Origin: a virus
Virus record (IMG/VR): IMGVR_UViG_3300026116_000081
Location: 1-30,664 of that record
DNA length: 30,664 nt
Direction: 5' to 3' (one strand)
Positions 2,008 to 27,983 of the stretch are shown here, piece by piece (within the stretch, counting starts at the first letter, position 1; each line of letters opens with the position of its first letter). The position numbers were made by a program, and so were the translations under genes. Under the pieces are notes generated by a model that saw nothing but the letters and a program-made list of their open reading frames with translations, was not told where the DNA came from and made no database searches.

Positions 2008-2055
2008 ATAATATAATAGAAGCTTAGTGACTTCAAGAGTCCAAATTTGGTCAAA
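2008..2055 (-). promoter_or_regulatory. Minus-strand promoter with GACCAA box (divergent partner)
   Basis: On the minus strand a GACCAAA box (plus 2052-2046) is followed, at a 16-nt offset, by the -35 TTGAAG (2036-2031), a 17-bp spacer and the -10 TATTAT (2013-2008). This is the same geometry as the three plus-strand promoters at 2070, 7794 and 10362. A second TATAAT-like hexamer (2010-2005) lies 3 bp further on. It would transcribe the structured elements S1 and S2 and then the genes from 1701 down to 918. Confidence 0.65.
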
Positions 2056-2066
2056 TGAGAGTCCGG

Positions 2067-2114
2067 TTTGACCAAGAGATTCCTGTTGAAATGCCCAAAG
2101 ACTTACCATATAAT
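2067..2114 (+). promoter_or_regulatory. Plus-strand promoter with GACCAA box, upstream of terminase genes
   Basis: The sequence holds TTTGACCAA at 2067-2075, -35 TTGAAA at 2086-2091, a 17-bp spacer and -10 TATAAT at 2109-2114. The segment GACCAAGAGATTCCTG (2070-2085) is nearly identical to the same segment at 7794-7809 and 10362-10377. The box forms a perfect 9-bp inverted repeat with TTGGTCAAA at 2047-2055, the box of the divergent promoter. Transcription should start near 2121, so the usable start codon of the first gene is the GTG at 2143. Confidence 0.75.
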
Positions 2115-2142
2115 GGGAGCCATACGACTCATAGGTCTTCAA

Positions 2143-3081
2143 GTGGCATTTGAAATCGATCCAGCACCGCCGTGTATAACGCTTGACGCTGCTGAGCGTG
2201 AGCATGACTATATTGGTGAACATGCTGAAGCGATGCCTAGTGAGACGGAGATCGTTGCATTACCCGCTGTATTGCGTGGATTGGATGTTTCGAAGGTAGA
2301 GACTCGTACTGATTTCGTACGCGAACTGAGTCGTACCCTTCCTCTGAACGAGTATAACCTTCCAATATACGTTTACAATCCGGCTTTCCTTGATATCCGC
2401 CTCTTGTTAGATACCCAGAGGACTGAAGCCAAGCATCTTCTTGGAGATATGTTGACAAACGCAGTCACATATGTCCAATATGATCATGGATACCCCACAA
2501 TCAAGGATGATTCTCCTCTTTGGTCGCAGTTGCCCTGGGAGACTACTACTGGGTTTGCTGCGTTCCTCCAATTCCTAGAGCTTGAGGGCGCCCGAGGAAT
2601 TCACAAAATACCCTCAGTTGAGCCTGGTCTCCTGAGAGAATGGTATCACGAAAACATCTGGGCCTTCAGAGCTAAGGCATATGACGCCTATTTAACAGCT
2701 CATCACGCCCGTTTACGTGAGAAACGGATCTTCACAGTCCAAGATGACCAGTTTAAGAAGAGCCAAAAGCTCCTACAAAAGGTCAATGACGCGCTCGAAG
2801 CCAAGTCAAACGAGCATATGGAGTCATTGGACTTCGATAAGTTGGTGACTTCCTTCGCCAGATTGGCCAAAGTTCAGCAGGATTCTCTCGGAATTGGCAC
2901 TTCTAAGGATGGAACTCCTCCAATGGGATCATCCGTCGAAGTGATTATGCGTAAGGCTGCAGAAGGTCAGGGACAAATCCGAAAAGTCGACAACGATACT
3001 GTGGATATGGAGTCTCTTCTTTCTGATCCTCAAGCCTTAGAGGCTGCTCAGGAGTTGATCATCAAGGTCAACCAACGATGA
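2143..3081 (+). CDS. Candidate terminase small subunit (312 aa)
   Basis: The protein of about 312 residues begins VAFEIDPAPPCITLDAAERE, with the initiator read as Met. The frame extends upstream to a TTG at 2068, but that region is the promoter and its -10 hexamer, so the GTG at 2143, with AGG 7 nt upstream, is the likely start. The protein is mostly helical and charged, with a middle region (GFAAFLQFLELEGARGI) that could be a DNA-binding helix-turn-helix. Its stop overlaps the large terminase start by 4 bp. That position supports a role as the DNA-recognition partner of the packaging motor. The family is not recognisable from sequence, so the call is by position; another head or DNA-binding protein is possible. 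Confidence 0.55.
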   Translation: MAFEIDPAPPCITLDAAEREHDYIGEHAEAMPSETEIVALPAVLRGLDVSKVETRTDFVRELSRTLPLNEYNLPIYVYNPAFLDIRLLLDTQRTEAKHLLGDMLTNAVTYVQYDHGYPTIKDDSPLWSQLPWETTTGFAAFLQFLELEGARGIHKIPSVEPGLLREWYHENIWAFRAKAYDAYLTAHHARLREKRIFTVQDDQFKKSQKLLQKVNDALEAKSNEHMESLDFDKLVTSFARLAKVQQDSLGIGTSKDGTPPMGSSVEVIMRKAAEGQGQIRKVDNDTVDMESLLSDPQALEAAQELIIKVNQR

Positions 3082-4610
3082 TGAACGTCCATGACCAAGA
3101 ACAACTCGCGAGAATCGCCAATAATTGGCGACTCACTCCTGCCACAATGGCGACGAAGCTCACTGGAGGACAGTGGATCGCGGCGCCTTGGCTTAAGTAT
3201 GCGTCGACTCGCATTGCTAGTGGGATTGCTCGTGGCGGTGCTCGGATTATCCTCAGTGCTCCTCCTCGTCATGGCAAATCCGAGCTTGTATCAGTGCATA
3301 CACCTACTTGGGTTCTAGAGAATTTTCCTAACAAGAATGTGATCTTAGCAGCCTATGGAGCGGATCTTGCAGAACAGTACGGAAGACGTGTACGAGACCA
3401 GATCCGAGATAAAGAGGACCTCCTCAGGTGTAGAATACGCCAAGATGTCAGCAAGGTTGGAGCATTCCTCACAGAGTCCAATGGTTATATGTATTCCGTT
3501 GGTCTGGGTGGAGCCATCACTGGCAGAGGAGCTCACGTCTTACTGATTGACGACTATATCAAGGAGATCAAAGAGGCATTATCTCCTGCTCAACGCGACT
3601 ATGTATGGAATTGGTTCGTCACAACTGCCATGACTCGTTTAGAGCCTGGCGCATCCGTCATTATCATTGCAACTAGATGGCACTCAGATGACCTCATTGG
3701 ACGTATCCTCAAGAACTTTCCAGGGCAATGGGAAAATATCATTCTTCCCGCCATCGCTACTGAAAATGATATGCTCGGTCGAGCAAAAGGTACTCCCCTT
3801 TTTCCTGAAAGATTCGGTATCGACTTTCTTGAAGGGCAAAGAGAACTCCTCGGAAGCGTGTTCTTTCATGCACTCTATCAGCAGGGCCCGGTAGATGAGG
3901 TAATGAAGATCACGAATCCTGGCTGGATTAAAGTGGTCGCAGTGCTGCCTGAGGCAGATGATTGGAAATGGGCTAGAATCTGGGATTTGGCTGCAACTGA
4001 GGATGGTGGTGACTATACCACAGGTACTTTGTGTGCATATAGCCGTAATTCAAACCAATTCGTCATCTCGAACATCATCCGTAAGCAAATATCCATTGGC
4101 GATGTTGAGAAACTAGTCAAGGATACTGCAGCTTTCGACGGTGAGGATGTTTTAGTCGGCATTGAACAAGAGCCTGGTTCTTCTGGAAAGGGTCTTGTCA
4201 CACATTACCAGACGAATGTGCTGCCAGAACATACTGTCGAGCCTGTTCCAGCTACAAAAGCCAAGCTAATCAGGGCTCAACCCTTCCTAGCAGCTGCTGA
4301 AGCAGGAAAAGTCTATCTCTTGGCTGAAGCTGTCAGCGATTATAGCTCAATCGGCGGTGACTTTGGATGGCATGAACGCTTCCTGAAGGAATTCGAAGTC
4401 TTCCCGGGAGGCGAGAATGACGATCAAGTTGATACTGCTGCAGCTGGATTCGTACGTCTCTCTGGTAAAAAGGTCTTTTCAGTCTCTTGGGGACGAAAAC
4501 CTGCTGATGGATATAAGGCTAACAGCAAAAAGATCCGTCAAGCATCCTTTATAATGGCTGGTCGTGGTAAATCGATCGGCGTTTCATTCGGCAGACGTAG
4601 GAAAGCATAA
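3078..4610 (+). CDS. terL: Terminase large subunit (packaging ATPase and nuclease)
   Basis: This 510-residue packaging motor cuts concatemeric DNA and pumps it into the prohead through the portal. The N-terminal ATPase shows Walker A APPRHGKS (61-68), Walker B VLLIDDY (154-160, D158-D159) and a coupling motif IATRWHS (198-204). The C-terminal RNase H-like nuclease starts at WDLAATEDGGDYTTG (302-316), and further acidic candidates are E363 and D448/D449/D452 in the ENDDQVDT segment. The basic C-terminus (GRRRKA) is typical. The gene overlaps the upstream gene by 4 bp, and its last base is the first base of the portal start codon. The length fits the family. A second ATG at 3081 is an alternative start. 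Confidence 0.95.
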   Translation: MMNVHDQEQLARIANNWRLTPATMATKLTGGQWIAAPWLKYASTRIASGIARGGARIILSAPPRHGKSELVSVHTPTWVLENFPNKNVILAAYGADLAEQYGRRVRDQIRDKEDLLRCRIRQDVSKVGAFLTESNGYMYSVGLGGAITGRGAHVLLIDDYIKEIKEALSPAQRDYVWNWFVTTAMTRLEPGASVIIIATRWHSDDLIGRILKNFPGQWENIILPAIATENDMLGRAKGTPLFPERFGIDFLEGQRELLGSVFFHALYQQGPVDEVMKITNPGWIKVVAVLPEADDWKWARIWDLAATEDGGDYTTGTLCAYSRNSNQFVISNIIRKQISIGDVEKLVKDTAAFDGEDVLVGIEQEPGSSGKGLVTHYQTNVLPEHTVEPVPATKAKLIRAQPFLAAAEAGKVYLLAEAVSDYSSIGGDFGWHERFLKEFEVFPGGENDDQVDTAAAGFVRLSGKKVFSVSWGRKPADGYKANSKKIRQASFIMAGRGKSIGVSFGRRRKA

Positions 4611-6184
4611 TGAACGCGCTATCTGACATTCTAGGTCGTGCTCGAATGATGTTCGCTGGCGGTTTACAAGCTGGCGGTAAGAGGGATCTGTACTATACTT
4701 ATGGCTGGAATAAGAATCCTCTCCACCAAGACTTCGTATCCAAGTATGCTCGACAAGACATCACTAAGAGAATTGTCGAAGCTCCTGTCAATGCACTCTG
4801 GTCAGACCCACCGAAAGTGACTGGGGATGCTGCGTTTCAGACTGCTTGGAACGATCTTCTTGCCAAGATTCCTGTGTTCCATGAGCTTCAGAGGGCAGAT
4901 ATCCTTGCTGCTTTGGGGCGATATTCTGTTTTGGTCATTGGTTTTGATGATGGACAGAAGCTAGATCAGCCTGTTAAGCAGGGAAAGTCTCGCAAGGTTC
5001 TATATTTACAACCCTATGCTGAAGGCTCGACCACTATTAAGGAATATGACAAAAATCAGCAGTCTCCTCGCTTCGGCCTGCCTTTGAAGTACACGATAAC
5101 GCCAGGTGCATTCCAAAAAGGCACTATGGGTGAAACTATCAGTGATGGTTTGATGTCATCTTTCGAGGTACATCATAGCAGAGTCCTGCATATTGCTGAA
5201 GGGGCGCTGGAATCTAAGGTGTTTGGACACTCTAGGTTGGAGAGTGTCTATAATGTGCTGGATGACATCCTCAAAGTGACTGGCGGTAGTGCTGAGATGT
5301 TCTGGCTCTCAGCAAATAGAGGACTCCATGTCAATGTCGATAAGGATATGGAACTCAAAGGAGACGATGCAGAGAATCTTGCCGAAGAAATTGACGAATA
5401 TACCAATGAGCTCCGTCGTGTTATCCGTACGAGAGGTGTTGATGTCAAGTCTCTTGGTTCTGAAGTTGCTGATCCTCGTGGTGTATTTGACGTTCAGCTT
5501 TCTCTTCTGGCTGCTAATACAGGTATTCCAAAGAGGGTTCTCATGGGATCGGAAGCTGGACAGCTAGCTTCGCAGCAAGATCGCGCTAACTGGGCTATCC
5601 AAGTCGAGATGAGGATCTCGTCTCACGGCCAACCCACCATCTTGATTCCGTTTATCCGTACCCTTATTGACGCGGGCGCTCTTCCAGTTCCCTCGCAAAT
5701 GTCGATTGAATGGCCTGACGCATTCAAGATGAACCCCCTAGAGCGTGCTCAGACGAGTGCTCAGATGGCTAGATCTGCTGCAAACTTGTCGAAGACTCTC
5801 AAGACTGTGCAGGATATCAATACTCGGGGAGCAGAGAATGCACGTCCGACCTTCGAAGCGACGTCGGGTGGAGGAGGATTTATGGCTAACGCAACAGCGG
5901 ATCCAGCGGTTACGCCGTCTAGTACGCCAAAACCCGCAGATGGAACCACTACTGCAACCGCACCTACGGAGGGTTTTGGTTCTGCAACGTCGGATCCAAC
6001 GACAGTACCTCCAGGGATGATCGAACGTCCGCCTTTGATTCCCAAGTTTGAGCCTCTTGTCTTGTTGACTGAGGAAGAATGTCGTTCGATCATCGGATTT
6101 GGCAGACATATGCCAGTATTTGACTCCAAGAGCGATTCTTCCACAGCATCTGGTTCAGGTGCAGGCCCAGCTGCGACCGAATAG
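4610..6184 (+). CDS. Portal protein (DUF1073 / PF06381 type)
   Basis: The 524-residue protein forms the dodecameric ring at the packaging vertex that receives the terminase and later the tail. Support comes from its place right after the large terminase and from portal-like features of the DUF1073 family. These are an N-terminal region YYTYGWNKNPLHQDFVSKYA followed by DITKRIVEAPVNALW, a helical stem region, and GIPKRVLMGSEAGQLAS with a following QDRANW near residues 310-335. The last 100 or so residues are Gly/Thr/Ser/Pro-rich and probably disordered. This family shares its N-terminal domain with anti-CBASS Acb1-like proteins in Pfam naming, but I see no separate phosphodiesterase domain here. 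Confidence 0.88.
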   Translation: MNALSDILGRARMMFAGGLQAGGKRDLYYTYGWNKNPLHQDFVSKYARQDITKRIVEAPVNALWSDPPKVTGDAAFQTAWNDLLAKIPVFHELQRADILAALGRYSVLVIGFDDGQKLDQPVKQGKSRKVLYLQPYAEGSTTIKEYDKNQQSPRFGLPLKYTITPGAFQKGTMGETISDGLMSSFEVHHSRVLHIAEGALESKVFGHSRLESVYNVLDDILKVTGGSAEMFWLSANRGLHVNVDKDMELKGDDAENLAEEIDEYTNELRRVIRTRGVDVKSLGSEVADPRGVFDVQLSLLAANTGIPKRVLMGSEAGQLASQQDRANWAIQVEMRISSHGQPTILIPFIRTLIDAGALPVPSQMSIEWPDAFKMNPLERAQTSAQMARSAANLSKTLKTVQDINTRGAENARPTFEATSGGGGFMANATADPAVTPSSTPKPADGTTTATAPTEGFGSATSDPTTVPPGMIERPPLIPKFEPLVLLTEEECRSIIGFGRHMPVFDSKSDSSTASGSGAGPAATE

Positions 6185-6195
6185 GTTAGGTCGTC

Positions 6196-6456
6196 ATGGA
6201 ATGGATAACGCCCAAGTTGGTTGAGGTTGTAGCAGGTTTGATTCGAGAAGGTGGTCTAGCACTTACCTTGACCTTAGTACTCATCGCCTATGTCTTTGAA
6301 ATTAGGCGTGGTATGCATAAGGATAAGATAATTGCAGACAAAGAGAAGGCAAATACCGAATTCCAGATGAAAATGCTGGAAGTAGTCGGTGAGATGAAGA
6401 CCACAGTGTCTAATGGCAACTTACTCTTGGAAATGTTGACAAGAGGACGCAAATGA
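6196..6456 (+). CDS. Small single-pass membrane protein (86 aa), holin-like
   Basis: This 86-residue protein begins MEWITPKLVEVVAGLIREGG. It has one hydrophobic segment (about residues 20-36, LALTLTLVLIAYVFEI), a basic patch RRGMHKDK, then a long charged helix likely to form a coiled coil. An AGG-type site precedes the ATG. It starts 12 bp after the portal gene and overlaps the next gene by 4 bp, heading a cluster of small membrane proteins (6196-7752). The topology would suit a holin or another membrane effector, but no family is recognised. Confidence 0.8.
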   Translation: MEWITPKLVEVVAGLIREGGLALTLTLVLIAYVFEIRRGMHKDKIIADKEKANTEFQMKMLEVVGEMKTTVSNGNLLLEMLTRGRK

Positions 6457-6653
6457 GGGATCTTCTGAAGCCAATTTGTTGGTGGCTAAGTAAGAAACCG
6501 ACCTTGAATCCAACGTCGACCGAGAATATTGATCAAGCACTACAAGAATTGAGGGATCTAAACAAGAGACAGTCTGAAGTCTTGAACAGTGTTAAGCAGC
6601 CAGATATCCTTCGCAGTTTGGTCATATCCATGAACTCAGGGCGTAACAGATGA
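6453..6653 (+). CDS. Hypothetical small protein (66 aa)
   Basis: This 66-residue protein begins MRDLLKPICWWLSKKPTLNP. A short amphipathic, Trp-rich N-terminus is followed by a charged helix (ENIDQALQELRDLNKRQSEV), a possible coiled coil. Both neighbours overlap it by 4 bp in ATGA arrangements, so it is coupled to the membrane proteins on each side. A peripheral membrane partner of those proteins is a reasonable guess; no function is assigned. Confidence 0.75.
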   Translation: MRDLLKPICWWLSKKPTLNPTSTENIDQALQELRDLNKRQSEVLNSVKQPDILRSLVISMNSGRNR

Positions 6654-7033
6654 AAGAATCTCTCTTCCTAGAGATCGTTAACGGCAACTTTTTCATGCTG
6701 TCCTTCTGCGCTATTCTGGTATTTGCCCGTTATATTGTGAGCAATTGGAGAGAAGGTTATACCTTTCTTCGTCCTGCTTTTGCTTTGACGGGTGTCTTTC
6801 TGGGAGAGTTCATCATTAGGTTAAACTTCTGGTTCACAAGGTACAATATCAACACGGGAGGGCAGTACCAGACGCCATCGATAAATATCACTATCCTGGG
6901 ATCCTTAATAGCTTCTTGGGCCATCCTCTGTACGATCGCAGTATTCTCGCCTGCCAAACTGCGCAATCGTGCTTGGATATTGTCGTTACTAGCTACGGCA
7001 ATCTTTCTTTTTCTTTCCCTAACTTGGAGGTAA
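6650..7033 (+). CDS. Multi-pass membrane protein (127 aa)
   Basis: The 127-residue protein has about four hydrophobic segments: near 13-30 (FFMLSFCAILVFARYIV), 40-60 (FALTGVFLGEFIIRL), 80-98 (ILGSLIASWAILCTIAVF) and 105-125 (ILSLLATAIFLFLSL). It is coupled to the previous gene by a 4-bp overlap and followed after 2 bp by the start of the secreted CHAP-like gene. A holin or a superinfection-exclusion protein would have this shape, but the sequence does not decide it. Confidence 0.78.
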   Translation: MKESLFLEIVNGNFFMLSFCAILVFARYIVSNWREGYTFLRPAFALTGVFLGEFIIRLNFWFTRYNINTGGQYQTPSINITILGSLIASWAILCTIAVFSPAKLRNRAWILSLLATAIFLFLSLTWR

Positions 7034-7035
7034 CT

Positions 7036-7557
7036 ATGCGAGTACGGATGTTCAAGGCGTTTTTGTGGCTAATTCCCTTCTTGTGCCTCTCATCTCAACC
7101 AGCTGAGGCTAGAAGGTACCACCATCACCATCATCATCACCAGCATTACCAAAGAGTTGCCAGCTCCAACTCCTGCTTTTTCATCTGTACTCCAACGACA
7201 CAGGCCAGCGGCCCTACTGCTTATTCCCACTCGCGTAGGAGCCTTGAATTTGCCTCATATGAACCTTCTAGAGGGGGCCACTTAGGTGGAAGACCTCGTG
7301 CGTGGTGTGGCTGGTGGATGCGTATGGACACAGGAATTCATGACGTCAGCTTAAACTTGGCTCGTAATTGGGCTCGAGTGGGATCAAACGCTGGAGGTCC
7401 TCGCGTAGGTGCCATTGTAGTATGGGCACATCACGTTGGAAGGATCACAGGACGAACTGCAGACGGTCAATGGATCGTGAAGAGTGGGAATGATGGTCAT
7501 GCAGTTCGTGAACGCCCACGATCTCTAGCAGGCGCGATAGCGTTCCGCAACGTCTAA
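7036..7557 (+). CDS. Secreted CHAP/NlpC-like cysteine peptidase-fold protein (173 aa)
   Basis: The start at 7036 is fixed by GGAGGT just upstream; the frame is open further left but that part lies inside the previous gene. Residues 1-25 form a signal peptide ending in an AEA-type cleavage site. A run of seven histidines (29-35) follows, then a low-complexity linker, then a domain from about residue 85. In that domain Cys91 (RAWCGWW), His132/133 (WAHHVGRI) and Asn152 (SGNDG) fit the Cys-His-polar triad of CHAP/NlpC-P60 amidases. Similar secreted proteins are familiar from rhizobial genomes. A peptidoglycan-cleaving or periplasmic role during infection is inferred. A moron borrowed from the host is possible. 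Confidence 0.78.
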   Translation: MRVRMFKAFLWLIPFLCLSSQPAEARRYHHHHHHHQHYQRVASSNSCFFICTPTTQASGPTAYSHSRRSLEFASYEPSRGGHLGGRPRAWCGWWMRMDTGIHDVSLNLARNWARVGSNAGGPRVGAIVVWAHHVGRITGRTADGQWIVKSGNDGHAVRERPRSLAGAIAFRNV

Positions 7558-7566
7558 GGAGATAAT

Positions 7567-7752
7567 ATGTCAGTGATCGGTTTTATCTACCTCCTAATCA
7601 AGCTTCTAGCTTTAGCCTTAGTGTATTTCGGTATACTTTGGCTCTGTCAATGGCTTGAAATCAGTGTCCCTACTATGGTCATGAAGATCCTTGCAGCCAT
7701 TCTGGTCTTACTAGGAATAGCTGCAATTCTCAGGTTCCTAGGGGTATTCTAG
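7567..7752 (+). CDS. Small two-segment membrane protein (61 aa)
   Basis: This 61-residue, almost wholly hydrophobic protein begins MSVIGFIYLLIKLLALALVY. It has two predicted membrane segments (about 3-28 and 37-58) joined by a short loop (LEISVPT). AAGGAG lies just before the start. It is the last gene before the terminator at 7764-7792. The size and hairpin topology resemble class II holins or small host-like membrane proteins. No specific family is claimed. Confidence 0.75.
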   Translation: MSVIGFIYLLIKLLALALVYFGILWLCQWLEISVPTMVMKILAAILVLLGIAAILRFLGVF

Positions 7753-7763
7753 GTGGAGAGGGG

Positions 7764-7792
7764 AAGAGGGAGCTTCGGCTCCCTCTTTCTTT
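7764..7792 (+). terminator. Rho-independent terminator with UUCG tetraloop
   Basis: A perfect 10-bp stem (AAGAGGGAGC at 7764-7773 with its complement at 7778-7787) is closed by a C(TTCG)G tetraloop and followed by TCTTT. It lies 12 bp after the membrane protein cluster. It ends the transcription unit that begins with the terminase genes. The next promoter starts within its T-run. Confidence 0.93.
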
Positions 7793-7838
7793 GGACCAAA
7801 AGATTCTTCGTGACTGCTCTTAAATTACCATTTATAAT
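7791..7838 (+). promoter_or_regulatory. GACCAA-box promoter for the receptor-binding cassette
   Basis: The sequence holds TTGGACCAAAAGATTC at 7791-7806, -35-like GTGACT at 7810-7815, a 17-bp spacer and -10 TATAAT at 7833-7838. The 16-nt distance from the GACCAA box to the -35 equals that in the promoters at 2070 and 10362. The -35 is the weakest of the set, which would make it the most dependent on a factor bound at the box. Confidence 0.75.
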
Positions 7839-7862
7839 GGTAGGTAGCAAATAGAGGTTGCC

Positions 7863-8384
7863 ATGACCACAGAATCGTTAGGACTCCCAACAACAGCTGG
7901 GAATTCGTTTAATCGTCCGGCTGATACAAATGCCTACGTATCTGGTGATCTCATAGCTAATGTGACGACAACCAGCCCCCAACCCACTCCGTTCACATTC
8001 ATTGTGGCTGATACAATCGACGATGTTGTAGGTATCAGTAGGGTACGTCTTAAAGTAAATGACACGGCATTCGCTGGTAAGCAAGTCGCTCTGCATCTCT
8101 ATCGCAACCTCCCCACATTAGCTGTGGGTGACAATGGCGCATTTGCAGCTGGACTAGGTGCTTCGGAATCCGATAAGCTGGATGTGATCAACATCACGTT
8201 TGGAGTAGCCACTTCTGACGGATATGTCATAGGTTATGGGGTACCTTCAGTAGGAGGGCTAATCATAACCAAGACTTCGGATGGTCTAAAGACCATTTAT
8301 GGTATTCTCGAATGTCTTGCAGCGGTGACCCCGGGCAGTGCAAGAACTTTCGCCGCAGTGCTTGAAATTGCTGGGCGCAGATAA
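7863..8384 (+). CDS. Probable virion protein of unknown role (173 aa)
   Basis: The 173-residue protein begins MTTESLGLPTTAGNSFNRPA and is rich in Thr, Gly and Val with alternating hydrophobicity, as in beta-sandwich virion proteins. There are no Cys-His motifs, signal peptide or membrane segment. AGAGGT precedes the ATG. It opens the cassette with its own promoter and is followed, with a 1-bp overlap, by a 52-residue gene and then the spike. It may be a head or neck protein anchoring the spike, inferred from position alone. Confidence 0.75.
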   Translation: MTTESLGLPTTAGNSFNRPADTNAYVSGDLIANVTTTSPQPTPFTFIVADTIDDVVGISRVRLKVNDTAFAGKQVALHLYRNLPTLAVGDNGAFAAGLGASESDKLDVINITFGVATSDGYVIGYGVPSVGGLIITKTSDGLKTIYGILECLAAVTPGSARTFAAVLEIAGRR

Positions 8385-8542
8385 TGTCAGCCCTCTTCAA
8401 AAATCTGATCGGGAAGAGACTCCTTCTCCTTGGAGCAGGATCTACCTCTAGTTCAGTTCCAGCTGGCTATGGATTCCTTACTCTCGGCGGCACCGATCCA
8501 CTAGTTCTCGGCGGCCAACCTCTCATCTTAGGTACCAGCTAA
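8384..8542 (+). CDS. Small protein with LGG repeats (52 aa)
   Basis: A 52-residue frame starts at the ATG whose first base is the last base of the preceding stop (TAATG), and its TAA directly abuts the ATG of the spike gene. The sequence begins MSALFKNLIGKRLLLLGAGS and ends with the repeated pattern LTLGG, LVLGG, LILG. The exact fit between two genes, with translational coupling on the upstream side, supports a real gene. Very short Gly-rich proteins next to fibre genes are common in phages. Its role, perhaps spike attachment or assembly, is a guess. Confidence 0.75.
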   Translation: MSALFKNLIGKRLLLLGAGSTSSSVPAGYGFLTLGGTDPLVLGGQPLILGTS

Positions 8543-10342
8543 ATGACCAATATTGACATCGAAGTACCTGGCGCAAGCGACACCCGTCTTAAAAAGGCTA
8601 TTAAGAACTTGGCGGGTATCTACATCCCGACGCAGTTCGGTGCAGTTGCTGGAACGGGGCGGTCTGCAGGTGAACGCGCCGCAAACGCTACAGCTATCGG
8701 CTCTATGCTCACAGCAGCTGTGGCAGATGGTGCATTGGCTTATATCGATACAGTCTATGAGATTGCATCTACGCCAATTAACGCCAAGGCCATGAATCGC
8801 CTTAACTTAGACAGTTCACCGACAGGGCGAATTATCCAATACACTAATGACATTCCGGGCATCCAGATTGGTGGTGCATGGTTACGTATTGGACGCTTGC
8901 GAGTTGATTATAATGCTCAGCAAGGTAGCTCAGGTGCTTCTATCACAGCGAACGGAACGGGTGGAGCAAACGCCTTTGAGTTCTGGCAGCTCACGCGATC
9001 CCATATTGGGTTGCTGCAAGCAGATCAAGCCGCTCGTGGAATACACATACCTCAAGCAGATGCTAACGGTAGTGGGCAGAGCCAAGTATTCTCCAACACC
9101 ATCGAGGACATCGAGATCACCCGCTATTCGTATCGCGGGATGGACCTCCAGTCTGTTGGAGGTTCTACAGGTAATGTGTTCGGCAACGTCTATCTTCGGG
9201 GTAACGGCATAGGTAGCAGACCTAACGTCAATATCCCGTTGGTCATGATCAACTTTAACGATGAGTGCATTTTCAACCAGCTAAACATCGAGCACTGTTC
9301 ACCCTTTGCAATTGCGAGTGGTGACTCTGTGAACGCTTCTGGTCTCATCAACCTATCCTCAGCCAATATCATCATCAATGCACTGCACGTCGAGGGCATA
9401 GAGCCGAAGGCAGACGACAAGGCGATTGTCTATGCTCAGTCAGCTAGTGGGTGTGACATTAGAGGCTTCGGCTTCAGCACCAGCTATTTCCTTTCAGCAA
9501 ACGGTTGTACCAAGTTCCACTTGGCTCGTCTCTTTGGAACTGATGCACACGTCAGGATTGACAGAATTGTTGAGCACGCTCACACTCTGACCGGGGCCGT
9601 CATGGATCTCGGCTATGCTGCAAGTGCTTTAACTACCTCATCACTTCATATCGGAAGGTTTATCCAGCGCACGAACATTGGACTACTGAGCAATGTTCTC
9701 CCGACCAACGATCAGAAGGTCCTTAAGGAAGTTAATGCTAGGCCAGTCCCCAACTGGCTCAGGGCTGGTCGTGTATTTGGCCCTCGCGGTAACGGCAACG
9801 GTACGTTGAACCCGATTATTGGATCACGGCTCTACGCCACGCCGTTCCAAGTTGACCATCCGGTGTCGGTGGACAAGCTATATGTCTATTGTGCCAATCT
9901 GGTAGCTAGTTCCGAAGTTCGGATGGCGATATATCACGATGATGGCACCAACCAACCCGGCGCAAAGATTGCGGAAGTCTCTGCTGTTGTGTCCACAGCG
10001 GGAACCGGCAGTAAAAATGGGACTATTACCTCTCCTCCCGTACTGCTTCCGGGACGATATTGGGGTGTGGTTATCGGCTACAACACAGCCGCAGGTGCGC
10101 TCCCGGGTCTCGTAGGCATCAACGCAGCCGTCGCAAACGTTGCGAATCACGATCTTGGTGGAGCCGACATGTCGTTCATGGGCTCGAGTGCCTCTGCGAG
10201 TGGTGGCGTGTATGCGGATGTCACGATTGCGGATGCTACAGCATGGGGTGCTTATGTATTCCCCTCCACGTTCCCTACAGGTACACTCCACACCAACGCC
10301 GTCACACCACACGTAGGAATGAACGCCCTAGCTGTTCCGTAG
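8543..10342 (+). CDS. Tailspike or head-spike protein with pectate-lyase-like beta-helix
   Basis: The 599-residue protein has an N-terminal pectate-lyase-3-like opening (IYIPTQFGAVAGTG, then ANATAIGSML). Next comes a long region of short repeating beta strands and Asn/Gly turns (about residues 30-400) typical of right-handed beta-helices, with segments such as NTIEDIEITRYSYRG and NIIINALHVEG. A C-terminal beta-sandwich (about 430-560, with VDKLYVYCANL and YWGVVIGYN) follows and may bind the receptor or trimerise. Such proteins bind and often cut surface polysaccharide. Catalytic residues cannot be named. Its place between portal and capsid genes, not with the tail fibres, makes a head-spike role possible. 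Confidence 0.8.
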   Translation: MTNIDIEVPGASDTRLKKAIKNLAGIYIPTQFGAVAGTGRSAGERAANATAIGSMLTAAVADGALAYIDTVYEIASTPINAKAMNRLNLDSSPTGRIIQYTNDIPGIQIGGAWLRIGRLRVDYNAQQGSSGASITANGTGGANAFEFWQLTRSHIGLLQADQAARGIHIPQADANGSGQSQVFSNTIEDIEITRYSYRGMDLQSVGGSTGNVFGNVYLRGNGIGSRPNVNIPLVMINFNDECIFNQLNIEHCSPFAIASGDSVNASGLINLSSANIIINALHVEGIEPKADDKAIVYAQSASGCDIRGFGFSTSYFLSANGCTKFHLARLFGTDAHVRIDRIVEHAHTLTGAVMDLGYAASALTTSSLHIGRFIQRTNIGLLSNVLPTNDQKVLKEVNARPVPNWLRAGRVFGPRGNGNGTLNPIIGSRLYATPFQVDHPVSVDKLYVYCANLVASSEVRMAIYHDDGTNQPGAKIAEVSAVVSTAGTGSKNGTITSPPVLLPGRYWGVVIGYNTAAGALPGLVGINAAVANVANHDLGGADMSFMGSSASASGGVYADVTIADATAWGAYVFPSTFPTGTLHTNAVTPHVGMNALAVP

Positions 10343-10358
10343 GATCAAACCTATTTGG

Positions 10359-10406
10359 ATTGACCAAAAGATTCTTGTTGAAGGCCATCTTCGAACCATA
10401 TATAAT
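10359..10406 (+). promoter_or_regulatory. GACCAA-box promoter for the capsid operon
   Basis: The sequence holds ATTGACCAAAAGATTCTTG (10359-10377), -35 TTGAAG (10378-10383), a 17-bp spacer and -10 TATAAT (10401-10406). It has the best -35/-10 pair of the plus-strand set and lies 22 bp before the start codon of the protease/scaffold gene. It would give the capsid and tail genes their own strong late transcript. Confidence 0.8.
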
Positions 10407-10427: not shown

Positions 10428-12017
10428 ATGACCAATACACGCATCTATCAAGCCGTACGAGCACACGTCAGCGGTGCCTATGACAAAGGTACGCTGCACG
10501 GCAAAGAGTATATTGTTGTGCCCGTAGTTGCTTTGGTAGAAGGTGTATTGCAAGGAATGGCTGCTGAGGGTCCAGAGTTGGCTCTAGCAGAAGAGTTCGG
10601 CAAGTTTCCAGATTCCTGGAATGGCCGTCCCATCGTGATGTCGCATCCCACGAAGGACAGTAAACCTGTAAGCGCAAACTCCCCTGATGTCCTTCAAGAG
10701 TACCAGATAGGTTTCATCTTCAACGCCAAAATGGATGGTTCAAAGCTTTGTCTAGAGGCTTGGTGCGATCCTGATATGATGGCAAACCTGAATGATGATT
10801 CCAAGGCAACTCTAGAGACTCTGCAAGCCGGTACGATGATTGAAGTCTCGACCGGTTATTTTGCTGAGATCGAACCTACTTCAGGGGTATATGCTAATTC
10901 CACTTACGACTCAATCCAACGCTCTGTAGTCCCTGATCATCTTGCTTTCCTTCCCAATGGTGTCCTTGGTGCGTGCAGTAACGCTGATGGCTGTGGAGCT
11001 CAGCTCGCCGTCAATTCCAAACCAACGGATGAATTCCCCCGTGTGAAGACTTTCTACGCCCCTCAACCGTGTTGTGACTCTTGTGCGTCAGGACATACAT
11101 GTGAAGGTACATCGAGCATGCCGAGCACCAACAAAGATATGGCTTCGAAGGACAAGGCCGACAAAAAGAAAAAGCAAGATCCCAAAGCCTACCAAGAGTA
11201 TGCTTCGACTATCGCGAACACCCTCGCTGGCGGAGTTACGTTCTCCGACGCCCGAGACGCAGTATGTGAGGTTCTGAAAGTCACTAATGCTTATTCCTAC
11301 GTTGTAGCTATGACGAAGGATACTGTCATTTATGAGCAGTATAACTCGTTCACAGGTTCATATGAAACCTACCAGCGTGGATACGCAGTTTCAATCGACG
11401 GCAAAGTCACTCTTGACGATAACGTCGAACGAGTTCGGCTCATGACGAAAGTCGTGACCGTTAACGCCGATGGCAGTGTGCCAGAGGATCAACCGGAGCA
11501 GAATATGACCACTTCCAATAATGGGGCTGCTGCGGCCTCGACTACGACCACTGCAGCTGAAACGACCACGACTGTTGAGCCCAAAGTTCATAAGGTTGAG
11601 AATGAACAGGGCACTCTTGAAGTAACCGTGAACGAAAAGGGTGAACCCACCGGATTCGTTCTGACGCCGAAGGCTCAGCCTGTTGCAGCCCATGCGGCTC
11701 CCAAGACTGTTGCTGAGTTCGTCGCTCAGGCGCCTGCCGAAATGCAGGAGATCTTTCAGTCGGGCATTAAGCTCCATGCTGAAAAGAAGGATGGCCTCAT
11801 TAAGGGCCTTCTGGCTACCAACCGTTGCAAGTTTGACGAAGCCAAGCTCAAGACGTTCTCTCTGGACATGCTTGAATCTCTGGCGGAACTCGCACAGGTT
11901 CCTTCGTTCGCTGCCCAGGCGCGTCCTTTCACCATCGTCGACAACTCCTCTGAAGACGATAACGTGACTCCGGCACCTCTGGTGTTCGAAGCGCCCAAGG
12001 CCTCTACGGCTGCGTAA
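10428..12017 (+). CDS. DUF2213-type prohead protease with scaffold region (529 aa)
   Basis: The N-terminal 185 residues match the DUF2213 family, seen with phage capsid genes and likened to HK97-type prohead proteases. They include FPDSWNGRPIVMSHP (60-74, His73), IEVSTGYFAEIEP (138-150, Ser141) and VPDHLAFLPNG (168-178). His73 and Ser141 are candidate catalytic residues. A Cys-rich insert (Cys183, 189, 215, 216, 219, 225) could bind metal. A Lys-rich linker, a small alpha/beta domain (about 250-345), a Thr/Ala-rich linker and a helical C-terminus follow, which would serve as scaffold. The gene starts the capsid operon and is followed by decoration and capsid genes. Confidence 0.82.
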   Translation: MTNTRIYQAVRAHVSGAYDKGTLHGKEYIVVPVVALVEGVLQGMAAEGPELALAEEFGKFPDSWNGRPIVMSHPTKDSKPVSANSPDVLQEYQIGFIFNAKMDGSKLCLEAWCDPDMMANLNDDSKATLETLQAGTMIEVSTGYFAEIEPTSGVYANSTYDSIQRSVVPDHLAFLPNGVLGACSNADGCGAQLAVNSKPTDEFPRVKTFYAPQPCCDSCASGHTCEGTSSMPSTNKDMASKDKADKKKKQDPKAYQEYASTIANTLAGGVTFSDARDAVCEVLKVTNAYSYVVAMTKDTVIYEQYNSFTGSYETYQRGYAVSIDGKVTLDDNVERVRLMTKVVTVNADGSVPEDQPEQNMTTSNNGAAAASTTTTAAETTTTVEPKVHKVENEQGTLEVTVNEKGEPTGFVLTPKAQPVAAHAAPKTVAEFVAQAPAEMQEIFQSGIKLHAEKKDGLIKGLLATNRCKFDEAKLKTFSLDMLESLAELAQVPSFAAQARPFTIVDNSSEDDNVTPAPLVFEAPKASTAA

Positions 12018-25856: not shown

Positions 25857-27983
25857 ATGGCGATTGCAGTAACCAATATAGGTACTAACAACAATAACTC
25901 CGGCTCAACGCTAGCGATCTCTGCGGTAACGGTCCCGGCCGGCTCCCTTATTGTTGTTTGTGTTACTGATAGGTCGGCAACGGCACCTGGTGGCTCCGTA
26001 AGTGATGGAGGCACCAATACCTATGCTAGTGCTGCTAGCAAGAATCTTAATAACTCGACATCCAACGGGTTTGGTGCTATCTTCTATGCGTATAACTCCG
26101 GGGCACTCTCCGGAGCTACGTTAACTTATACTAAAACCGGATCAGTCAACTGCTCAATGTCGGCGTTTTATGCTACGGGTATTCTCTCCGTTAGCGATCC
26201 GCTCGATACAGGTGTAACTGCTACCTCAGCAGGCAACGGTACAGGCGCTTCTGGAACAGTAACTTCAGGTGCACCAGCGGCTTCTGGGGCTTTATTCTTA
26301 GGAATGATTGCAAGAGCAGGTAATACTGCTACGTTTACTCAGGATACTGGTGTTGCGTGGGCAACTCCTCCTGTCGAAGCAAAAAGTGGTACAGCTAGCG
26401 GAGATGCTCGAACTAACGGTGGTACGTTTGTAAATACTGGCACCTCCGCACTAACTTACGCGCCTTCATACTCAGGTAGCTCATTAAATTGGGCAGCTCT
26501 GATTGTTGCATTCAAGAACGGCGTTATCACCTCATCTGCTACTGCGTCGGCATCAGCAGCAAGTACAGTTAGTGGTGTTGCTCTAACCGTTAAGAATAGT
26601 CCTGCGTCTGCTTCTGCTGCAGCCTCAGCAGCTGCTGTTGGTACAGGTATTAACGCAGCTGTCGGTTCAGCCTCTGCCTCTGCTACAGCATCTAGTGTAG
26701 GCCAAGGTCTTGGTATTTTTCCAGGTGTGGGCTCTGCATCATCTACTAGTTCAGTAGATGGCGTCGGTGCAAGCATTGCTTCTGCGGTGGCGGCAGCTTC
26801 GAGTACTGCATCTTCGAGTATAGTAGGTGCTAGCACAGCATCATCTACTGCGGCGTCATCTTCAACTTCGACAGATACGGGTGTAGGTCGTTCAACTGCT
26901 GCATCTACCGCATCTGCATCATCGACGGCTACTGACACAGCTGTAGGTACTGGTATAAATGCCTCAGTAGGCTCGGCTTCAAGTCTAGCTACTGATCTAG
27001 GAGTAGGCAGTGCAATAAATGCTGTAGTTGCTGCTGCGTCATCTACTTCTACGGATACGGCAGTTGGTGCAAGTACTGCAGCTAGTTCTGCAGCAGCCAG
27101 TAGTGTGGCTACAAGTACTAGTATAGGTCGTTCGACGGCAGCCTCTACAGCAGCCGCGTCGAGTCTTGCGACAGATCTTGCAGTTGGTACAGGTATCAAT
27201 TCTGCGGTTGGCTCTGCTTCCTCTTTGGGGACTATTAGCGGAGTCGGTACAGGTATTCGAAACTCAGTAGGTCTTGCCAGCGGTACTTCAGTCGCTCTGT
27301 CGACGGGTCGTTCGACTGCAGCCTCTATTGGTAGTGCCACAACCTCTGCTTCTGCAGTTGCGACAGGTGTTGCTATCTTGCCTGCGGCTGATGACCCCTC
27401 ATTCAATGGGGTTGTAGATGCCAGAGCATCTTCTGACTATATGTCTACTGACGGTGGGGATTACTTCGACGAAGTCACTAAAGGAACCTGGTGTGCTAAC
27501 TGGCATAAGGTTGGTGCTAAGTTTACGATTGCGGCTATTGTCTATTATAATGGTGGCGATTTCCGCATCCTAAATAACCGATCCAACCTCAACGAGCATG
27601 GATTCTCATTAGGTATTGCGTCTGGAGACCTAATTCTTCGGCGTTCTAATGGTAATGCAGTCAGTAATCAAGACAACACCCTTAAAACAGGGATGTCGTC
27701 GGGATGGTATTTCATTGCAGTGTCAGTAGATGAGTCGGGTGGGGCAGCTGCAAGTCATTGGAGAGTGGGCACTAATACAGGCACGTTTAATGGAGTATCG
27801 ACTTTGATATCTACTTCCGCTCCTTCAAACAAGACCCGAATGTTCAATACTCCAGCAGGATCCGCCCCATCTCCAGCAGGAACTAAGATCCATATGGTTA
27901 ATGCATGGGATAGAAACTTATCGGCAACAGAGATCCAGCAACTCTATACCACTTGGAAAGCAACTAGGTTCGCTGGAATCTAA
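25857..27983 (+). CDS. Large repeat-containing tail fibre / adhesin with LamG-like C-terminus (708 aa)
   Basis: Residues 1-215 form a beta-rich N-terminal domain (MAIAVTNIGTNNNNSGSTLA to WAALIVAFKNG). Residues 225-260 are Ala/Ser-rich. Residues 261-502 are twelve tandem repeats of 20 residues (one of 22), each starting with V-G or a variant and rich in Ala, Ser and Thr. Residues about 512-708 resemble a concanavalin-like or LamG carbohydrate-binding domain (FTIAAIVYYNGGDFRILNNR; WDRNLSATEIQQLYTTWKA). The arrangement fits a fibre with a repetitive shaft and a receptor-binding head. Attachment to the virion by the N-terminus is inferred. Confidence 0.8.
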   Translation: MAIAVTNIGTNNNNSGSTLAISAVTVPAGSLIVVCVTDRSATAPGGSVSDGGTNTYASAASKNLNNSTSNGFGAIFYAYNSGALSGATLTYTKTGSVNCSMSAFYATGILSVSDPLDTGVTATSAGNGTGASGTVTSGAPAASGALFLGMIARAGNTATFTQDTGVAWATPPVEAKSGTASGDARTNGGTFVNTGTSALTYAPSYSGSSLNWAALIVAFKNGVITSSATASASAASTVSGVALTVKNSPASASAAASAAAVGTGINAAVGSASASATASSVGQGLGIFPGVGSASSTSSVDGVGASIASAVAAASSTASSSIVGASTASSTAASSSTSTDTGVGRSTAASTASASSTATDTAVGTGINASVGSASSLATDLGVGSAINAVVAAASSTSTDTAVGASTAASSAAASSVATSTSIGRSTAASTAAASSLATDLAVGTGINSAVGSASSLGTISGVGTGIRNSVGLASGTSVALSTGRSTAASIGSATTSASAVATGVAILPAADDPSFNGVVDARASSDYMSTDGGDYFDEVTKGTWCANWHKVGAKFTIAAIVYYNGGDFRILNNRSNLNEHGFSLGIASGDLILRRSNGNAVSNQDNTLKTGMSSGWYFIAVSVDESGGAAASHWRVGTNTGTFNGVSTLISTSAPSNKTRMFNTPAGSAPSPAGTKIHMVNAWDRNLSATEIQQLYTTWKATRFAGI
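26637..27362 (+). repeat. Twelve tandem 60-bp coding repeats in the fibre shaft
   Basis: The repeats are in frame and start at 26637, 26697 (66 bp), 26763, 26823, 26883, 26943, 27003, 27063, 27123, 27183, 27243 and 27303. They fall into subtypes by their first residues: VGTGIN (26637, 26943, 27183), VGAST (26823, 27063) and a GRSTAAS form (26883, 27123, 27303). The subtypes recur with a period of about four units (240 bp). Codons differ between copies, so the repeats are old or selected at protein level. Confidence 0.9.

Follow-up and report, generated by a model that had tools for sequence, protein, structure and literature searches.

A lineage-specific class of box promoters in siphovirus genomes and a small helix-turn-helix protein as a candidate for its binder

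Results

The DNA analyzed here, which we call the window, is the complete IMG/VR virus record IMGVR_UViG_3300026116_000081 (30,664 nucleotides, nt), a 30.7-kb fragment of a phage genome, and the element in question is a GACCAA box that stands a fixed distance upstream of the -35 hexamer in several of its promoters. The plus strand carries genes for a TerS-like protein (2068-3081), the terminase large subunit, the portal, the head maturation protease (10428-12017), the major capsid protein and the tape measure protein, and the minus strand carries small non-structural genes at both ends of the window together with the end of a dCTP deaminase gene. The leftward promoter, on the minus strand, has GACCAA at 2052-2047, a -35 TTGAAG at 2036-2031 and a -10 TATTAT at 2013-2008, and reads GACCAAATTTGGACTC from box to -35. 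Facing away from it, on the plus strand, lies the promoter of the TerS-like, terminase and portal genes, with the box GACCAAGAGATTC at 2070-2082, a -35 TTGAAA at 2086-2091 and a -10 TATAAT at 2109-2114. The back-to-back boxes of this divergent pair (2047-2078) form the inverted repeat TTGGTCAAA-N11-TTTGACCAA. The box GACCAAAAGATTC occurs in both of the remaining plus-strand promoters. One precedes gene 7863-8384 (box 7794-7806, -35 GTGACT 7810-7815, -10 TATAAT 7833-7838), and the other precedes the head maturation protease gene (box 10362-10374, -35 TTGAAG 10378-10383, -10 TATAAT 10401-10406). These four promoters had been proposed in an initial annotation of the window, with GACCAA 16 nt before the -35 and a spacer of 17 bp, and coordinates, offset and spacer proved exact in all four. 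Their hexamers, 16-18-bp spacing, intergenic location and direction into genes are those of sigma-70-type promoters. The bare hexamer GACCAA occurs 27 times in the window against 15 expected and is followed by a promoter in only 4 cases; the longer word GACCAANAGATTC occurs exactly three times, each time within a plus-strand site.

A weight matrix was trained on 27 box promoters of related contigs, with the window and the cultured phages excluded. On the window this held-out matrix placed the four sites at the top, with scores of 34.4 (leftward promoter), 34.1 (2070), 33.5 (10362) and 27.6 (7794), followed by a fifth site at 20.4; everything else scored at most 4.2, and the best score in 20 Markov shuffles of the window was 14.2. 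The fifth site (827, minus strand), which the initial annotation missed, is a weaker promoter at 794-843 on the minus strand. It has a degenerate box-like TACCTAATTTTGCCTA and two overlapping cores, TTGCTT-17-TATAAT (from 827) and TTGACC-17-TATAAT (from 822), and a terminator-like hairpin (882-849) precedes it.

The position of the box was examined by aligning sigma-70-like sites of about 35 related contigs on their -35 hexamers, 195 of them intergenic and 236 genic look-alikes. Of the 195 intergenic sites, 17 had a GACC starting at -17 and 14 had one starting at -16 (31/195 together), against a single one of the 236 genic look-alikes at each of these positions (Fisher p = 1.8e-9). The intergenic sites showed a secondary GACC peak at -28/-27 (5+6), with 0-3 occurrences at the remaining upstream offsets. 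An enlarged set comprised 121 distinct sites from 40 contigs, of which 113 were intergenic although intergenic DNA makes up 21% of the sequence; because the scan that produced this set had the 16/17 offset built in, the unbiased evidence for the offset is the comparison of 195 with 236 sites. A distal second GACC was found exactly 11 bp further upstream in 18 of 88 sites, with no more than 3 at every other offset. The consensus reads tGACCA-N-(A/C)-A-W-W-T-T, then a pyrimidine-rich run ending in (C/T)T(C/G), then TTGA. Such a conserved element outside the core, at a fixed distance upstream of the -35, is one of the features of activator-dependent phage promoter classes of the Ogr, CII and Mor/C kind. 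The initial annotation had held position and helical phase to be conserved, and the -16/-17 peak and the 11-bp second unit bear this out; no core-promoter feature accounts for the box. Its offset of exactly 16 holds for the four window sites, but lineage-wide GACC also lies at -17 and the box is sometimes tandem with an 11-bp period. It would have been refuted by hits within genes at the rate seen at module boundaries, and the 113 of 121 show that this is not the case.

A further conserved word, AGGAC(T/C)TTT, was seen in the spacer between -35 and -10 in minus-strand promoters of some relatives (L034, L040 and L031).

A DNA search of the window against 50,697 phage records gave no match. Searching IMG/VR with the terminase yielded 32 relatives with 47-71% identity, and the near-complete ones are 48-70-kb phages with siphovirus gene sets. 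Those that were annotated encode a primase-like protein, ligase, ribonucleotide reductase and DNA polymerase A, together with GTP cyclohydrolase and QueE/QueD/QueC-type proteins. The genes of this 7-deazaguanine pathway (GTP cyclohydrolase I, QueE, QueD and QueC-type) were seen in G003 (L053-L056) and in the cultured phage MaInes (L073-L074), so the DNA of the lineage is probably modified. The only cultured members that a search with the primase-like protein found are the Brevundimonas phages MaInes, which is grown on Brevundimonas pondensis LVF1, and StAshley. The held-out matrix found nine sites scoring at least 18 in each of these two, whereas Strzyga, Poludnitsa and Babayka, which infect the same host strain but are unrelated, had none. 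The 2.9 million viral contigs of IMG/VR were scanned twice by DNA alone, once for the tandem box and once for GACCATNATTTGGACTCTTGA, and the two scans together returned 16 stretches. Every stretch from the tandem-box scan lay in a contig that was already in our set or that has homologues of the lineage terminase, portal or protease. One stretch from the GACCATNATTTGGACTCTTGA scan (L099) has no homologue within its 5.8 kb, and its full contig, G029, encodes the lineage helix-turn-helix (HTH) protein described below. A looser first scan of IMG/VR (GACCAANAGATTC...TATAAT) gave 11 stretches, of which only one (L005, contig G026) belongs to the lineage, the others being mostly AT-rich chance matches. 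Contigs with at least two sites range in GC content from 0.39 to 0.56. A terminase search of genome contigs gave three distant matches in metagenome-assembled genomes and no clue to the host. The paper describing MaInes and StAshley does not mention promoters, and we found no description of such a promoter class in the open-access literature searched. The absence of the box from the three unrelated phages of the same host and the return of the lineage alone by the tandem scan agree with the phage-specific class of the initial annotation. Judged by spacing, 11-bp period, intergenic location and restriction to the lineage, the predicted box promoters are a lineage-specific promoter class.

In MaInes, box promoters precede genes for TerS/terminase (22014+), the head protease (26997+), DNA ligase (3518-), the primase operon (12091-) and an exonuclease (64702-), as well as several small genes, with further sites at 14976- and 8013-, and the pattern in G003 is similar. 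The position of the TerS promoter matches between the window (2070) and MaInes (22014+), and that of the protease promoter matches in the window (10362), MaInes (26997+) and G003 (61255+). The first in-frame ATG of the TerS-like gene of the window (2113) overlaps the -10 of its promoter, so that translation must begin at a later codon if the promoter is active; homology with the MaInes protein starts about 27 residues past that ATG. The initial annotation had proposed that the box controls the late modules together. This is not supported, since one strong window site would drive leftward non-structural genes, and the boxes of relatives precede ligase, primase, exonuclease and small non-structural genes along with those for terminase and head protease. 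The class is thus not confined to late genes, and the box looks like the mark of a general promoter class serving several gene sets: replication, other non-structural and late.

A conserved small protein of 83-130 amino acids (aa), which we call YQIV (MAINES_00200 in MaInes), has a tail of low complexity and a predicted HTH of three helices that ends in (V/I)PYQIVFAATK; its core reads (R/K)RxDYI...RGEIAKELGVPYQIVFAATK. One copy was present in all 13 near-complete relatives, including G026 and G029, which had been found by the DNA box alone. It was absent from the three unrelated phages of the same host and from ten contigs with chance box hits, and among cultured phages its relatives were found only in MaInes and StAshley. 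With these two phages counted once, there are 12 distinct near-complete genomes, and 10 of them have a box promoter (score at least 15) within 400 nt upstream of the YQIV gene, as does the fragment G009; the two genes lacking one are those of G029 (best score 12.3) and G030 (3.3). The nearest solved folds in Foldseek are mostly HTH DNA-binding proteins: IstA, ArdK (including its direct-repeat complex), KorB, RcsB, sigma domains that bind the -35, and resolvases. Pfam gave sub-threshold matches to CENP-B_N, HTH_7 and HTH_23, and a sequence search of the PDB gave no match. These data suggest YQIV as the best candidate for the binder of the box.

Other regulators were sought in seven records, the window fragment and six near-complete relatives. 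CtsR, OmpR/PhoB Trans_reg_C and Ogr_Delta zinc-finger domains were found in none of the seven, nor was a sigma region 4 protein at the sensitivity of Pfam. A CtsR, PhoB/OmpR-type or Ogr/Delta protein or a phage sigma factor was therefore rejected as the reader of the box. A T7-like phage polymerase was also rejected: the two conserved proteins of about 800 aa are a primase-like protein and a ribonucleotide reductase, and the third, which is larger, belongs to the family A DNA polymerases; the sigma-70-like core contradicts such a polymerase as well. A small HTH_17 protein (BldC/excisionase-like) was present in six of the six near-complete relatives searched, namely four large ones and both cultured phages, and its gene adjoins queC where mapped; in MaInes it lies at 61270-61524. 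Its recognition helix varies, with TYQTVLRYVKE and CTATCRTYVKK as the two forms and MaInes differing from the others.

Discussion

We propose that these are sigma-70-type promoters activated by a phage HTH protein, with YQIV as the best candidate, that sits on the box units; we consider this model as a whole to have an even chance of being right. Upstream of the core promoter (TTGA, 17-18 bp, TATAAT) stands a proposed operator unit of 11 bp, GACCA-N-(A/C)-A-W-T-T, or two such units head-to-tail. The proximal GACC starts 16-17 nt before the -35, at about -51 from the predicted transcription start, and the optional distal unit lies exactly one helical turn further up, at about -62. The protein would bind each unit on one face of the DNA, with GACC read in the major groove and the AT-rich part in the minor groove, and would contact RNA polymerase at region 4 of sigma or at the alpha C-terminal domain. 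This contact would switch on replication, other non-structural and late operons, and the YQIV gene itself, being usually transcribed from a putative box promoter, would be autoregulated. Protein binding, the phage origin of the binder, its identity as YQIV and activation are all four inferred. The rigid offset with one position of freedom, the same-face 11-bp unit and the -51/-62 position favour contact with polymerase, and activation over repression. The initial annotation had suggested a dedicated DNA-binding protein beside sigma-70 polymerase, and this part of it still appears the best explanation, with a conserved, lineage-specific HTH candidate now at hand; the joint control of late modules attached to it is unsupported. 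More tentatively, and with rather more doubt than confidence, we suggest that YQIV may represent a new family of small HTH activators. Such a protein, in which the recognition helix YQIVF(A)(A)TK is almost invariant and the N-terminal tail disordered, would bind head-to-tail on 11-bp GACCA-N-MAWTT repeats, recruit host sigma-70 polymerase from -51 (and -62) and serve as master regulator of the whole 7-deazaguanine siphovirus lineage.

Activator-dependent phage promoters are already known, as with P2 Ogr and lambda CII, and the box word, the geometry and the candidate protein, as far as sequence can tell, match none of the families tested. P2 Ogr and P4 Delta are small phage activators of sigma-70 promoters; they bind some 50-55 bp ahead of the transcription start and contact polymerase. 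The upstream position of the box is similar, but Ogr sites are dyads (TGT-N12-ACA), whereas the box forms direct repeats and its genes are not restricted to late ones. Lambda CII is a small HTH protein that acts with sigma-70 polymerase on direct repeats, TTGC-N6-TTGC, which are spaced about one helical turn apart and flank the -35. Direct repeats are thus common to both systems, although the box units both lie upstream of the -35, use another word and have an 11-bp period. PhoB/OmpR-type boxes share the 11-bp head-to-tail units, made of a short word and an AT-rich part, but a Pho box takes the place of the -35 and has the word TGTCA, and the relatives have no Trans_reg_C domain. The operator of CtsR, a heat-shock repressor of Firmicutes, is GGTCAAA-NAN-GGTCAAA; its reverse complement resembles tandem TTTGACC repeats, with a period of 10 rather than 11. 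The stoperators of mycobacteriophage L5 are, like the box, asymmetric, intergenic phage sites oriented with transcription; they keep no fixed distance from a promoter, whereas the box does.

An explanation that we regard as possible though rather unlikely is that a host factor reads the box and the phages exploit it, either an activator or the alpha C-terminal domain of RNA polymerase on an UP-like element. The A/T-rich DNA after the box units, at about -46 to -41, is like a proximal UP subsite, and 11-bp phasing would also fit the alpha C-terminal domain; on the other hand, GACC differs from an UP element in being a specific word that contains G and C. The three unrelated phages that share the host strain have no sites, and the box contigs span 39-56% GC, suggesting different hosts. 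A precedent for host control exists, in that CtrA sites, which are recognized by a host protein, control promoters of Brevundimonas, Caulobacter and Mesorhizobium phages (PMC9437464), that is, of alphaproteobacterial phages with the same hosts as here. The CtrA motif is TTAA-N7-TTAA, however, and the window holds no copy of it, for which reason CtrA was rejected as the reader. We give little credence to the idea that the binder is instead the HTH_17 protein beside queC, set head-to-tail on 11-bp repeats in the manner of BldC. The protein is as widely conserved as described above, and BldC, also a small HTH protein and MerR-like, does bind AT-rich direct repeats head-to-tail (PMC5859096), as we propose here for the box; but the BldC unit is 9 nt (AATTXXXXC), not 11 bp, and the HTH_17 recognition helix varies although the box is conserved.

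The box might also be a repressor operator, an autoregulator site or timing switch at which an HTH protein silences its own and other promoters early. Its placement before an HTH gene would suit autoregulation, the core promoters are fairly good unaided (TATAAT, 17 bp), and in the minus-strand class GGACTC/TTGACC words extend to the -35. Repressor sites, however, usually overlap the core or vary in position, whereas here the box is held rigidly at -16/-17, well upstream of the -35, as contact with polymerase would require, and we think repression improbable. That GANTC near the -35 makes these GcrA/CcrM methylation-dependent promoters seems very improbable, even though GANTC is present in all four main window sites, falls within -13 to +1 in 26% of box promoters, compared with 8.5% of the remaining intergenic promoters and 1.7% of genic look-alikes, and the host of the cultured relatives belongs to the Caulobacterales. 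Only 24 of the 121 lineage sites have it, and GACTC and GACAC alternate at one position in one genome; since T at -2 is preferred in general (77/121), GANTC merely follows from the composition of the motif. That the four sigma-70-like sites resemble one another by chance, for which the abundance of the bare hexamer in the window might speak, is contradicted by the held-out matrix and the cross-lineage statistics. We rejected it as having virtually no probability.

Several observations weigh against activation by YQIV. The -35 of box promoters is not clearly weaker than that of other promoters. The Foldseek E-values for YQIV are all above 0.1, as the small size of the domain would lead one to expect, and the window fragment has no YQIV gene. 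Because YQIVFAA was part of the search pattern, the helix owes its invariance in part to ascertainment; MaInes, G003, G008 and G012, which were reached by synteny or BLAST, retained YQIVF..TK. The control for a host factor consists of three phages of higher GC only, with no host genome, and the HTH_17 protein is a second conserved small HTH protein that could serve as the binder.

The lineage is almost entirely uncultured, and with the promoter matrix its operons can be traced in the sequence. Members of the lineage can be found by promoter syntax alone, as the near-complete, box-found G026 and G029 show by both encoding YQIV. The analysis links one small candidate regulator to one particular DNA box in cultured phages; if the proposal is true, the activator family would be new, and promoter and activator would make a compact pair for the Caulobacterales.

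Other features of the window

A hairpin resembling an intrinsic terminator, AAGAGGGAGC-TTCG-GCTCCCTCTT, lies at 7764-7788 on the plus strand directly 5' of the 7794 box, with a folding energy of -25 kcal/mol across 7755-7795 (z -2.9). Terminator-promoter cassettes, in which a strong hairpin closes one operon and a box promoter opens the next, are seen at 7764-7838 and at 794-882. The palindrome ACCATTTATAATGGT holds the -10 of the 7810-7838 promoter and is shared with a relative (L013, 4096+); it is possibly a second operator over the -10 at 7833-7838.

Directly behind the leftward promoter, at 1830-2001 on the minus strand, about 165 nt lack an evident gene and are predicted to fold into an imperfect hairpin of great length (-66 kcal/mol, z -5.6; arms GATGTGCTATCGTCTATCCTA.. 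/ ..TAGGATAGACGACAGCACATC). This stretch is possibly a structured leader or a small RNA. It has no match in Rfam, and such a hairpin is absent behind most other box promoters; a structured leader was therefore rejected as a common trait of the class, the leftward leader of the window alone being exceptional.

Finally, 25857-27983 encodes a highly repetitive 708-aa protein rich in Ala, Ser and Thr, the middle of which contains many short, imperfect repeats.

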